From Xanthomonas sp. CFBP 8443 (GTDB lineage: Bacteria; Pseudomonadota; Gammaproteobacteria; Xanthomonadales; Xanthomonadaceae): a stretch of 64,000 nucleotides of DNA. Location: positions 3,906,001 through 3,970,000 of the forward strand of contig NZ_CP102592.1 of assembly GCF_025666195.1 (NCBI RefSeq), given 5' to 3'. Position numbers and translations under genes: made by a program. Shown here one piece after another: positions 2,621-55,040 of this stretch; within the stretch, counting starts at the first letter, position 1; each line of letters opens with the position of its first letter. Under the pieces are notes generated by a model that saw only the letters and a program-made list of their open reading frames with translations, had not been told where the DNA came from and made no database searches.

Positions 2621-3373
2621 ATGACCGATCCGTTCTCCAGCGCCGGCGCCAAGACCCCGCCCAAGCCCTTCACCATCGAGGAAGGCCGCCGCCAGGTGCG
2701 CAGCTTCGTGCTGCGCCAGGGCCGCTTCACTCCCGCGCAGCAGCGCGCGTTCGACGAACTGTGGCCGCGCTTCGGCCTGGACTACGCCGGTCAGCCGCGC
2801 GATCTGGACGCCACCTTCGGCCGCGCCGCGCGCAAGGTGCTGGAGATCGGCTTCGGCAACGGCGAGGCGCTGCGCTTCGCCGCGCGCCACGACCCGGCCC
2901 GCGACTACATCGGCATCGAAGTGCACGCGCCCGGCGTGGGCCGCGTGCTGAACGCGCTGGCCGCCGACGACAGCCAACACGTGCGCCTGTACCACCACGA
3001 TGCGGTGGAAGTGCTGGAGCACGAGATCGCCGACGGCGCGCTCGACGAAGTGCGCATCTACTTCCCCGATCCGTGGCACAAGAAGCGCCACAACAAGCGC
3101 CGCCTGCTGCAGCCGGCGTTCGCCGCCTTGCTGGTGCGCAAGCTGCGCGACGGCGGCCGCCTGCACGCGGCCACCGACTGGGCCGACTACGCCGAGCAGA
3201 TGTGGGACGTGCTCGATGCCACCGACGGCCTGGTCAACCGTGCCGGCCCGCGCGGCCACGTGCCACGCCCGGACTGGCGCCCGCAGACCCATTTCGAGAC
3301 CCGCGGCCAGAAGCTCGGCCATGGCGTGTGGGATCTGCTGTACGACAAGCCGGGATCGGGGATTCGGGACTAG
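2621..3373 (+). CDS. trmB: tRNA (guanine-N7-)-methyltransferase TrmB
   Basis: SAM-dependent enzyme that makes m7G46 in the tRNA variable loop. Class I methyltransferase motifs are visible: [12 protein letters not shown] (SAM loop), [12 protein letters not shown], and the family signature [15 protein letters not shown], followed by [11 protein letters not shown]. Length is 250 aa. Oddity: the last residues (PGSGIRD) and the stop are encoded by a GGGATC/GGGATTC heptad array, the left arm of an inverted-repeat element that continues to 3482, so the natural C terminus seems to have been replaced or extended by repeat DNA. Start 10 bp after thiG. Confidence 0.95.
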
Positions 3374-3482
3374 ATGAGGAGCGCAGCCGCCATCCCGACG
3401 ACGTATTTCCACGGCAAGCCATTGCCGCGGCCGGCTCCGCCTGCCGCCTTGTCCACTCCCTAATCCCCAATCCCCAATCCCG
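3351..3482. repeat. Inverted heptad-repeat element (copy H1)
   Basis: Left arm 3351-3371 has degenerate GGGATCG/GGGATTC units. Right arm 3456-3481 has CCCTAAT/CCCCAAT units in the opposite orientation, with a spacer of about 85 bp. The left arm overlaps the last codons of trmB and the right arm ends 8 bp before the next start codon. Same architecture as the copies at 5901, 27402 and 30550. Confidence 0.75.
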
Positions 3483-5900: not shown

Positions 5901-5991
5901 CGGGACTCGGGACTCGGGACTCGGACATCGCGATTTGAAGCGTTACCGACTTCCGTTCTTCGGGTCCCTGGTCCCCGGTCCCCGGTCCCGC
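5901..5991. repeat. Inverted heptad-repeat element (copy H2)
   Basis: Left arm 5901-5926 has three GGGACTC units. Right arm 5962-5991 has GGTCCCT/GGTCCCC units in inverse orientation. The spacer ends ACTTCCGTTCTTCGGGTCCC, closely matching the reverse complement of the copy at 30550 (GCTTCCGTTCTTCGAGTCCC). It separates the divergent Rieske gene and the small membrane protein gene. Confidence 0.8.
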
Positions 5992-25521: not shown

Positions 25522-27558
25522 TCAGTCCTGCGCGTCCAGCCAGGCCAGCACCCGCGCCGCCAGCGCCTCGGCGTTGTCGCCATCGGCCTGCAGGTGCAGT
25601 TCCGGCTGCGCCGGCGCCTCGTACGGCGAATCGATGCCGGTGAAGTTGGGGATCTGCCCGGCGCGCGCCTTGGCGTACAGCCCCTTGACGTCGCGCGCCT
25701 CGGCCACGTGCAGCGGCACGTCGACGAACACCTCGACGAACTCGCCGTCCTCGAAACGCGACCGCGCCATCGCGCGCTCGGCGCGGAACGGCGAGATGAA
25801 GCTGACCAGCACGATCAGCCCGGCGTCGGCCATCAGCCTGGCGACCTCGGCGACGCGGCGGATGTTCTCCACCCGGTCCTCGTCGGTGAAGCCGAGGTCG
25901 CGGTTGAGGCCGTGGCGGACGTTGTCGCCATCGAGCAGGAAGGTGTGCCGGCCCTGCGCATGCAGCCGCTTCTCGACCAGGTTGGCGATGGTCGACTTGC
26001 CGGCGCCGGACAGGCCGGTGAACCACAGCACCTTCGGCGCCTGGCCCTTGATCCGTGCGCGCGCCGCCTTGTCCACGTCCAGGTGTTGCCAGTGCACGTT
26101 GCCGGCGCGGCGCAGCGCGAAGTCGAGCGTGCCGGCGGCGACGGTGGCGTTGCTCTGCCGGTCGATCAGGATGAAACCGCCGAGCGCACGGTTGCGCACG
26201 TACGGCTCGAACGCGATCGGTTCGTCCAGCGCCAGGTTGCAGTAGCCGACCTCGTTGAGCTCCAGGCGCTTGGCCGCCAGCCGCTCCTGCGTGTTCACGT
26301 CGATGCGGTGCTTGATCTCGCTGACGCTGGCCGACACGGTGCGGGTGCCGAGCTTGAGCCAGTACGGGCGCCCCGGCAGCAACGCGGCATCGTCCATCCA
26401 CAGCACGTGCGCGGCGAACTGGTCGGCCACTTCCGGCGGGTCGCCGGCGGCGGCGATGACGTCGCCGCGGCTGATGTCGATCTCGTCGGCCAGGGTCAGC
26501 GTCACCGCCTGCCCGGCCACCGCGTGCGCGACATCGCCGTTGCCGTCGAGCACCCGCGCCACGGTGGAGCGGCGCGCCGACGGCAGCACCACCACCGCAT
26601 CGCCCGGGCGCACCTGGCCGGCCGCGAGCGTGCCGGCGAAACCGCGGAACTGCTGGTTCGGGCGATTGACCCATTGCACCGGCAGGCGCAGGCCGCTGTC
26701 GGCGTCGCGCGCTTCCAGGTCCAGGCCTTCCAGGTGTTCGAGCAAGGCCGGGCCGGCGTACCAGGGCGTGCGCGCGGACCGCTGCGACAGGTTGTCGCCG
26801 TCCAGCGCCGACAGCGGGATGCACTGCACCTGGGCGATGCCCAGCTGCGCGGCCAGCGCCCGGTAGCTGGCGGCGATCGCGTCGAAGGTGGCCTGGTCGA
26901 AGCCGACCAGGTCCATCTTGTTGACCGCCAGCACCACGTGGCGGATGCCGAGCAGCGAGACGATGTAGCTGTGGCGGCGGGTCTGGGTCAGCAGGCCCTT
27001 GCGCGCATCGACCAGCACCACCGCCACGTCGGCGCTGGACGCGCCGGTGGCCATGTTGCGGGTGTACTGCTCGTGGCCGGGGCAGTCGGCGACGATGAAC
27101 TTGCGCCGGTCGGTATCGAAGTAGCGGTAGGCCACGTCGATGGTAATGCCCTGCTCGCGCTCGGCGGCCAAGCCGTCGAGCAGCAGCGCGTAGTCGATCT
27201 CGCCGCCACGGGTGCCGTGGCGCTTGCTGTCGGCGCTGAGCGCTGCGAGCTGGTCGTCGAACAGGCGCTTGCTGTCGTACAGCAGGCGCCCGATCAAGGT
27301 GCTCTTGCCGTCGTCGACGCTGCCGCAGGTGATGAAGCGCAGCAGCGGTTTTTGTTCGTGCTGTTGCAGGTAGGCGGCGATGGCGTTGCCGCCGTCGCCG
27401 CGGGACTCGGGACTCGGGACTCGGGACTCGGACGACCCCGCGAACTGAGAGTCCGCGCCGGACGCAGACAGTCGCCCAACGGCCGAATCTGGGGTCTCAA
27501 GTTCCGGTGCTTTTTCGAGTCCCGAGTCCCGAGTCCCGAGTCCCGCATGAATAGCCAT
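25522..27558 (-). CDS. cysNC: Bifunctional sulfate adenylyltransferase large subunit / APS kinase
   Basis: With CysD it makes APS from sulfate and ATP using GTP hydrolysis, then phosphorylates APS to PAPS; 678 aa. CysN part: P-loop [31 protein letters not shown]. CysC part from about residue 490: [13 protein letters not shown]-loop and [16 protein letters not shown]. Start ATG at 27558 shares one base with the cysD stop (TGATG). Very unusual: codons about 5-50 are made of an inverted heptad element (4 x GGGACTC, spacer, 4 x GAGTCCC) read in frame ([10 protein letters not shown] ... [10 protein letters not shown]) before the family N terminus [10 protein letters not shown] resumes. No usual in-frame start lies after the repeat. 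Probably CysB-activated. Confidence 0.95.
27402..27545. repeat. Inverted heptad-repeat element (copy H4) inside cysNC
   Basis: Left arm 27402-27431 has four perfect GGGACTC units. Right arm 27516-27545 has four perfect GAGTCCC units. The spacer is about 85 bp. The whole element lies within the 5' coding region of cysNC (minus strand). Seven-base units are not a multiple of three, so unit gain or loss would change the reading frame. Confidence 0.9.
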
Positions 27559-28487
27559 CAGAAATACCCCTCCAACTTCTTCTTCTCCATCGACGCGCCC
27601 GGATCCTGATCGATCACCCGCCCCTGCCGCTCCGACGAGGTCGCCAGCAACATCTCGGCGATGATCTTCTCCAGCGTGTCGGCCTGCGATTCGATCGCGC
27701 CGGTCAGCGGATAGCAGCCCAGGGTGCGGAAGCGCACATGCCGCAACTGCGGCACTTCGCCCTCGCGCAGCGGCAGCCGCGCGTCGTCGACCAGGATCAG
27801 CGCGCCGTCGCGCTCCACCACCGGGCGCTCGGCCGCGAAATACAGCGGCACCACCGGAACCGACTCGCGGTAGATGTACAGCCAGATGTCCAGCTCGGTC
27901 CAGTTGGACAGCGGGAACACGCGCACGCTCTCGCCCGCATGGACCCGGGCGTTGTACAGATTCCACAGCTCCGGGCGCTGGTTCTTCGGGTCCCAGCGAT
28001 GCTTGTCGTTGCGGAACGAGAACACCCGCTCCTTGGCCCGCGCCTTCTCCTCGTCGCGGCGCGCCCCGCCGATCGCCGCGTCGAACCTGCCCTGGTCCAG
28101 CGCCTGCTTCAGGCCCTGGGTCTTCATCACGTCGGTATGCACGGTGGCGCCGTGGGTGAACGGGCCGATGTCCTGGGCGATGCCATCGGGATTGATGTGC
28201 ACCCGCAGGTCCACCCCGGTCTCGGCGGCGCGGCGGTCGCGGAACGCGATCATCTCGCGGAACTTCCAGCGCGTGTCCACGTGCAGCAGCGGGATCGGCG
28301 GCGGCGCCGGCGCGAACGCCTTCAGCAGCAGGTGCAGCAGCACCGAGCTGTCCTTGCCGACCGAATACAGCAGCACCGGATTGCGGAACTCGGCCGCCAC
28401 CTCGCGCAGGATGTGGATGCTTTCGGCCTCGAGCCGGTCGAGGTGGGACAGGGCGGAAGACTGCATCGGGGACAACGCGAGGCTCAT
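27558..28487 (-). CDS. cysD: Sulfate adenylyltransferase subunit 2 CysD
   Basis: Catalytic ATP-sulfurylase subunit that forms APS from ATP and sulfate; 309 aa, normal length. PP-loop signature [17 protein letters not shown] near residue 40, [14 protein letters not shown], the core [36 protein letters not shown] and the C-terminal [12 protein letters not shown]. First gene of the cysD-cysNC transcript, coupled to cysNC by TGATG. Divergent from cysJ across a 185-bp region that must carry the regulatory sites. ATG at 28487 matches the family start. Confidence 0.97.
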
Positions 28488-30549: not shown

Positions 30550-30656
30550 CGGGACTCGGGACTCGGGACCCGGGACTCGAAGAACGGAAGCCGGTGAAGC
30601 CTCAGTACGCGATCGTGCGCTTTTCCGAGTCCCCAGTCCCGAGTCCCGAGTCCCGC
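30550..30656. repeat. Inverted heptad-repeat element (copy H5) between cysJ and cysI
   Basis: Left arm 30550-30580 has GGGACTC/GGGACCC units (four). Right arm 30626-30656 has GAGTCCC-type units (four). The spacer is 45 bp with the end sequence GCGCTTTTCCGAGTCCC. It fills the cysJ-cysI gap and ends 2 bp before the cysI ATG, so in the transcript it could fold into a long hairpin covering the ribosome-binding region. Confidence 0.85.
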
Positions 30657-54688: not shown

Positions 54689-55040
54689 GACATCATTCCC
54701 TGGAAAAGCCGTTAAAACTAGCACAAGCACCGCTTCGGCAGGATGGCGAATCGGCATAGCGCCCTGCGGATTCATGCATGTCTTGCGGACAGTGCGGGAC
54801 AGTATGCGGACTCGACATTGCCGTTGCGCGACGCCCAGCGACGCGGCGCCATGCCGGAAAGCGTGCCCTTACCACGCTGTGCCACTGCCGGATTGCCACG
54901 CGAAGCCGACACCGCTGGCCACTGCCAGGCCTGCGCGAACAGCACGCGCAGACCAGTCATCGTCCGTAGACGGACGACCGGTAGCGCAACCGCTTTTCCG
55001 AGTCCCGAGTCCCGAATCCCGAGTCCCCGGGCCCGAACCA
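54689..55040. other. pyk upstream region with a solo heptad arm
   Basis: The 352-bp gap contains a right-arm-type heptad array at 54992-55036 (CGCTTTTCCGAGTCCCGAGT and further CCCGAATC/CCCGAGTC units), next to the 3' end of the HAD phosphatase gene. No inverted partner is seen. The remainder has no convincing gene and must contain the pyk promoter. Confidence 0.65.

Follow-up and report, generated by a model that had tools for sequence, protein, structure and literature searches.

The tandem-heptad inverted repeat within the first codons of cysNC is very probably a dispersed paired-heptad element of the Xanthomonadaceae/Lysobacteraceae, carried as a tolerated in-frame passenger in the N-terminal linker of CysNC, and not a slippage switch. 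This reading comes from comparing the sequence of the cysD-cysNC junction among related species and from a survey of similar elements elsewhere in the genome. The window is the whole stretch of DNA analysed, 64,000 nucleotides long, to which all coordinates refer. The features of the junction are as follows:

27558..28487, minus strand: cysD, sulfate adenylyltransferase subunit 2, 309 aa, C-terminal end KKKLEGYF
25522..27558, minus strand: cysNC, fusion of the CysN GTPase and the CysC APS kinase, 678 codons from the cysD-coupled ATG
27556..27558, minus strand: coupled start ATG of cysNC, in a TGATG overlap with the cysD stop TGA (27560-27558)
27517..27544, minus strand: 5' arm, GGGACTC x4 on the coding strand (GAGTCCC x4 on the plus strand); perfect arm 27516-27546
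27430..27516, minus strand: loop, differing between species; on the coding strand it starts GAAAAAGC
27402..27429, minus strand: 3' arm, GAGTCCC x4 on the coding strand (GGGACTC x4 on the plus strand); perfect arm 27400-27430
27298..27384, minus strand: start of the conserved CysN domain, including GSVDDGKST, 17 bases past the element's 3' arm

Homologues of cysNC carry the names sulfate adenylyltransferase subunit CysN or CysN-CysC, and the precomputed Pfam domains PF00009, PF22594 and PF01583 on the top homologue hits place a CysN GTPase and an APS kinase in one chain; both domains, together with the position of the gene downstream of cysD, mark it as a CysNC fusion. Its ATG begins on the final base of the cysD stop codon TGA, and a GGAGG-like site lies in the last codons of cysD, ahead of the cysNC start. 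In X. oryzae, cysD-cysNC goes by the name raxP-raxQ. An AlphaFold2 model of CysNC (18 rows) was poor (mean pLDDT 48.5, residues 1-148 below 50) and uninformative on the linker.

The initial annotation had described four GGGACTC units, a spacer and four GAGTCCC units inside the early codons of cysNC, and the sequence bears this out, with the first heptad unit 11 bases past the ATG and the element spanning codons about 5-52. The spacer of 85 bp that it gave is correct for the extended perfect arms of 31 bp, the heptad units proper lying 87 bp apart. It had also found no start codon between the repeat and the conserved region, which holds even from the coupled ATG onward: no in-frame ATG, GTG or TTG lies between that ATG and the domain at 27384 in the window's cysNC. 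The RNA of the element region was predicted to fold at -125.5 kcal/mol (z = -6.48), with a long stem formed from both arms. A 14-mer search allowing up to two mismatches gave 19 matches in the window, compared with 0.52 expected and a maximum of 3 in 100 shuffles. Further pairs were seen in the window at 3352-3481, 5902-5989 and 30551-30654 and an array at 54998-55037, in several dialects of the heptad.

Across the window's genome, a three-unit heptad pattern gave 516 matches, and its reversed control 10. In the first 100 of the 264 forward matches there were 51 arrays with three or more units, and 28 of these had four; array size elsewhere in this genome ranged from 3 to 8 units among the matches listed, and relatives in genus g10 carry heptad arrays of 11-12 units. 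A census of 464 kb, consisting of the window and 20 stretches mostly chosen for their array matches and thus giving no estimate of density, held 36 pairs in which a C-rich arm follows a G-rich one, the cysNC copy included, some of which may combine unrelated adjacent arms. The two arms agreed in dialect (CT, TT or CC at unit positions 5-6) in 33 of the 36 pairs, where shuffling led us to expect 12.8, and pair lengths modulo 3 (0/1/2) were distributed 10/15/11. The loop start GAAAAAGC resembles the loop starts of other elements in this genome, and the loop ends of different elements resemble one another. A conserved inner loop stem of 8 nt was considered as a hallmark of the family and rejected, an element's own loop ends (4.17) agreeing no better than ends taken from different elements (mean 3.95, maximum 4.56). 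By eye, a terminator-like hairpin with a T-run lies between the arms at three loci (L258, 16070-16220; L260, 17343-17492; L264, 15872-16004), and the arms of these elements can thus bracket an entire intergenic region.

According to the main text of Rehm et al. 2015 (PMC4692102), GGGAATC or (GGGANTN)n heptamers occur in X. campestris (70 inverted pairs) and X. citri (75), prefer four units and are mostly intergenic (11% intragenic in Xcc, 7% in Xac); G-quadruplexes were proposed for them. The elements described here resemble those repeats, as that text presents them, in the heptamer unit, the four-unit preference, the convergent pairs, the dispersal and abundance and the location mostly at gene junctions; the 4+4 copy, the four-unit preference, the convergent pairs and the abundance were all found in the window's genome. 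Under the rule given there (two or more units, including at least one GGGAATC), unit type and number fit, while the cysNC copy consists wholly of GGGACTC and holds no GGGAATC. Relatives' copies at the cysNC site do contain GGGAATC units. Unlike the repeats in that account, the whole cysNC copy falls within the ORF of a central metabolic enzyme and is apparently read through, in frame across genera; its relatives' dialects include GTGATTC, without GGG tracts, and its arms co-vary. The main text of Rehm et al. (PMC4692102) names neither cysN, cysD nor raxQ.

To follow the element across species, we read 141 cysD-cysNC junctions, one genome per species: 20 from g1 (the window's genus), 30 from g17, 20 from g15 and the remainder from the highest-ranked entries of the family search, so that distant relatives are under-sampled. 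The family search matched 262 of 297 genomes, from which 14 loci outside the genus and 80 further top-ranked regions were used, 38 lower listed rows and the unlisted ones lying outside the sample at that step (some g15 junctions were added later). The genus search covered all 20 g1 genomes; in g17, 30 of the 34 matching genomes were read, that is, without G310, G313, G314 and G316, and one of 35 was unmatched. Three loci missed by the first motif, which carry its RLITCGSV variant (L161, L205 and L221), were added back.

A paired heptad element was present at 72 of the 141 junctions, with 18/20 in g1, 30/30 in g17, 13/20 in g15, 6/16 in g10, 4/17 in g16 and 1/1 in g43. The overlap with cysD is TGATG in 69 of these copies and TAGTG in 3. 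All 72 can be read in frame and without a stop from the start coupled to cysD, as can 68 of 68 under a stricter pairing cut-off; of the 72, the two other frames are stop-free in only 28 and 36. One automatic heptad call, in G186 (g16), was dropped by eye, its arms not being heptads and its frame being broken; were it counted, the figure would be 72/73. Of the 69 junctions without a heptad pair, 58 have an open coupled frame, and CysNC therefore does not need the element; the 11 with a broken frame all have an ATG just ahead of the conserved domain, and several of them contain other palindromes.

In part of g16 (L132, L219, L157, L154, L164, L187, L123 and L125) we observed other inserts at this position, most with inverted repeats, and the cysNC genes there show an ATG past the insert. 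To judge by these inserts, the junction seems to be a general target for palindromic elements. It accepts several kinds of repeat, and the usable start codon depends on whether the insert can be read. Among all junctions, the G019 linker is that listed for X. theicola, and the X. populi linker (L004) is the same as that of G187.

That the element is translated, as the initial annotation had it, agrees with the open frame in every copy and with the absence of an ATG, GTG or TTG past the 3' arm in 71 of 72; 14 of the 72, the window's included, lack any start other than the coupled one ahead of the domain. We considered that the element might instead escape translation, either because the true start of cysNC lies past it or because the ribosome bypasses the hairpin. 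An in-frame start does lie inside the loop in 42 of 72 copies, three database CysNC entries (P0095, P0103 and P0003) start past the 5' arm, and relatives with other junction sequences have an ATG past them; in some species the 5' arm may therefore precede the true start. A start beyond the whole element is hard to reconcile with the lack of a start codon there, and bypass needs no open frame, yet all copies keep one, so that we regard an untranslated element as highly improbable. In the GTGATTC dialect, moreover, the unit that would read TGA (unit 2) is altered, to something other than GTG, in 6 of 6 copies, a weak result since the six genomes form one genus and stand for few independent events. 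We did not retain stop avoidance in this dialect as strong support for translation, GGG and GTC also being found at unit 2 elsewhere in those genomes.

Some constancy of frame could come from descent, and a second element of the window served as a control:

30551..30654, no strand assigned: control element, paired heptads between cysJ and cysI, outside both genes

cysI was located in 18 of the 20 g1 genomes. In these 18, the cysJ-cysI element was distributed over the three frames as 11/5/2, and in 10 genomes a stop interrupted the cysI frame, while the cysNC copy of the same 18 genomes was in frame in all. Part of the frame conservation is inheritance, as 11 of the 18 control copies have one frame in common. 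Among 71 cysNC copies, the arms begin in any of the three phases with respect to the start, and on a tree of 70 genomes the minimum numbers of changes were 6 for phase, 19 for length and 20 for dialect (5' arm). The tree was a quick build from cysD and cysNC sequence minus the linker, and the counted changes are neither all independent nor all certain, because recombined alleles arrive in frame and 18 of its 67 inner branches are weakly supported. On this sequence record, the frame is evidently selected at cysNC, unlike at the cysJ-cysI control. The dialects of the cysNC and cysJ-cysI elements were also seen to agree in 17 of the 18 genus genomes (ties taken as agreement), despite several dialects being common in the window's genome. 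The two cys sites lie about 3 kb apart and seem to undergo joint changes, perhaps through a single recombination tract.

The initial annotation had raised the possibility of a contingency locus, in which slippage in the heptad arms shifts the frame of cysNC and turns sulfate assimilation on and off. We counted units in 71 copies, G277 being excluded from arm counts for poor registration, with arms registered to four units by construction and a unit taken as recognisable when at least 4 of 5 fixed positions agreed. Each arm had four recognisable units in 64 of the 71 copies, the remaining 7 having a decayed unit; one copy (G228) had a clear fifth unit, and none showed a frame-preserving gain of three units. 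A loose rule found an extra heptad-like 7-mer beside an arm in 21 of 71, several of these resembling start-codon context. The comparison of repeat number, which the same annotation had put forward as the means of refuting a switch, thus showed a number nearly fixed at species level.

Like simple-sequence contingency loci, the cysNC element has tandem units not divisible by three near the 5' end of a gene; unlike them, it has a constant frame, a nearly constant unit number and no off state among the species compared. Slippage could draw support from the window copy, which shares with that of G171 alone, among the 71, four identical units in both arms, and from array length, which does change elsewhere, up to 8 units among the matches listed and to 12 in relatives. 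The window copy, with its unusually uniform arms, may indeed slip more readily than its relatives' copies. Most copies are imperfect arrays, only 30 of 71 being fully canonical at all eight units, and so make a poorer substrate for slippage. Contingency loci do not typically govern functions such as sulfate assimilation, which we also counted against a switch. Elements of this type are furthermore dispersed over the genome and, in other Xanthomonas, mostly intergenic according to the main text of Rehm et al. 2015. With no copy out of frame among 72, we rejected the contingency locus at species level and hold it very unlikely. The alternative that the initial annotation had set beside it, a hairpin with a tolerated peptide, is the best fit to the family comparison, in which the frame is kept and unit number is near-constant.

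What the copies do maintain is the match between their arms. Watson-Crick pairs occupied 1672 of 1988 cells in the 71 copies, whereas shuffling the 3' arms within genera gave a mean of 1547.5 (sd 14.2, maximum 1592 in 2000 shuffles). At unit position 5 the pairs were T-A in 116 cases, A-T in 72 and C-G in 28. The GTGATTC dialect has T-A in place of G-C at position 2, and C-C or G-G mismatches are frequent at position 7. Some stems have decayed, namely those of G277 (in the first set of 111 junctions) and G319. These pairing data speak for the element family and are no proof of selection at cysNC, because whole cassettes seem to recombine and arms match elsewhere too.

The selected feature of the arms might instead be four G-tracts forming a G-quadruplex, as Rehm et al. 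proposed for the family. The window copy does have four GGG tracts on each strand, and the GGGAATC repeat forms a G-quadruplex in vitro according to their main text (PMC4692102). Across the 71 copies, all four GGG tracts were intact in only 35 of the 5' arms and 47 of the 3' arms, and in neither arm in 16; in five copies, all from g10, the commonest unit core is GTGA, without GGG tracts. With tracts lost in so many copies, and with whole arrays in g10 lacking them, we rejected the G-quadruplex as a general conserved feature and consider selection on the tracts extremely unlikely. GTGATTC/G arrays without GGG tracts were seen dispersed in three g10 genomes, which had 26 (G199), 71 (G103) and 51 (G235) overlapping four-unit matches, the reversed pattern giving none. 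Arrays with a GTGA core were dispersed in the six g10 genomes searched, sparsely in three of the six.

Paired arms could also serve the cys genes directly, a stem of 28 to 31 bp immediately past the coupled start tuning the translation of cysNC relative to cysD, or protecting the cysD message, with the peptide as a by-product. The fold is very stable, complementarity survives the turnover of sequence, and elements lie at both cysD/cysNC and cysJ/cysI in all 18 genus genomes in which both were read, all of which is compatible with such a cis-regulatory hairpin. The element is nonetheless missing at cysNC in the close relatives G001, G013, G033, G201 and G237, and some stems are decayed, as noted above. 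Similar elements occur all over the genome with matched arms, in 33 of the 36 pairs, so that pairing belongs to the element as such and not to cys regulation alone. Taken together, these observations leave a regulatory role at cysNC rather unlikely.

Several alleles bear on how the passenger element changes. The g17 junction measures 162 nt in 28 of the 30 genomes read, and among these 28 genomes of equal junction length, the identity of loops and that of flanks were nearly unlinked (Spearman 0.13, nominal p 0.01, the pairs being non-independent), which suggests that whole cassettes are exchanged by recombination. The sister genomes G133 and G081 have near-identical sequence beside the linker and different cassettes of equal length, and the loop of G081 recurs with one difference in G309, on another branch. 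G248 carries an element that is lacking in its sister G033 and its relatives G201 and G237; its replaced linker peptide resembles other g15 alleles, which points to a recombined allele. We had considered this pair as the footprint of a de novo insertion into an empty site and rejected that, since by eye the linker was replaced and there was no clean target-site duplication. In G228, a GGGACCG-type pair comes after what may be the remains of a GGGAATG-type arm, which would fit the replacement of one element by another.

It is accordingly possible, though we put it forward tentatively, that through the paired arms the CysNC linker becomes a recombination-prone cassette site at which hairpin-forming elements are repeatedly swapped whole for the alleles of other species while the complementarity of their arms is maintained. 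If so, the constant junction length in g17 would go together with a turnover of loop and arm dialect almost independent of the flanks. The maintained trait would be a stem with a free seventh position, rather than G-tracts or a variable repeat number, and the translated peptide would be a cost of the element's location.

For the in-frame passenger as a whole, we propose that ribosomes finishing cysD would restart at the overlapping ATG and read through the element, so that CysNC would gain some 50 residues N-terminal to its CysN domain. This extension would be tolerated by the enzyme, and selection would remove frame shifts and stops, so that many loops, dialects and arm phases could be accepted at cysNC; an influence of the hairpin on coupling or on the stability of the message is conceivable. 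The peptide itself is presumably dispensable, cassettes would move between species by homologous recombination, and arm complementarity may be kept either by hairpin-templated copying or by selection on the stem.

REP/BIME elements with RAYT (Y1) transposases are likewise dispersed palindromes at gene junctions; they are built on a REP hairpin, whereas the cysNC element has tandem heptad arms. Membership in a RAYT/REP system was rejected, the sole Y1_Tnp match in the genome having no heptad array in the surrounding 3.3 kb. To our knowledge, Rickettsia palindromic elements have no heptad arms. As described in the sections of PMC10969869 that concern them, those elements are about 150 bp long, and many lie in frame in the ORFs of unrelated metabolic genes. 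Palindromic, in frame within an ORF and encoding a peptide, the cysNC element shares their architecture as presented there. The Rickettsia elements have a conserved peptide (PMC10969869, same sections), while that of the cysNC element varies with dialect and phase. Among the papers found, judged mostly by their bibliographic entries, none mentioned a heptad insertion in cysNC. By its sequence features, then, the cysNC element belongs with the heptamer inverted repeats of Xanthomonas, and would here be translated in frame in the manner of Rickettsia palindromic elements.

These results caution that predicted CysNC starts in Xanthomonas vary between database entries because of the insert, and that calling a contingency locus from reading frame requires cross-species controls. 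For the family, the cysNC site offers a natural test of what the abundant heptad repeats are selected for. The reading frame there acts as a built-in recorder of insertions and deletions, whose record speaks against free slippage of units, and the exchange of arm dialects favours pairing over G-quadruplexes.
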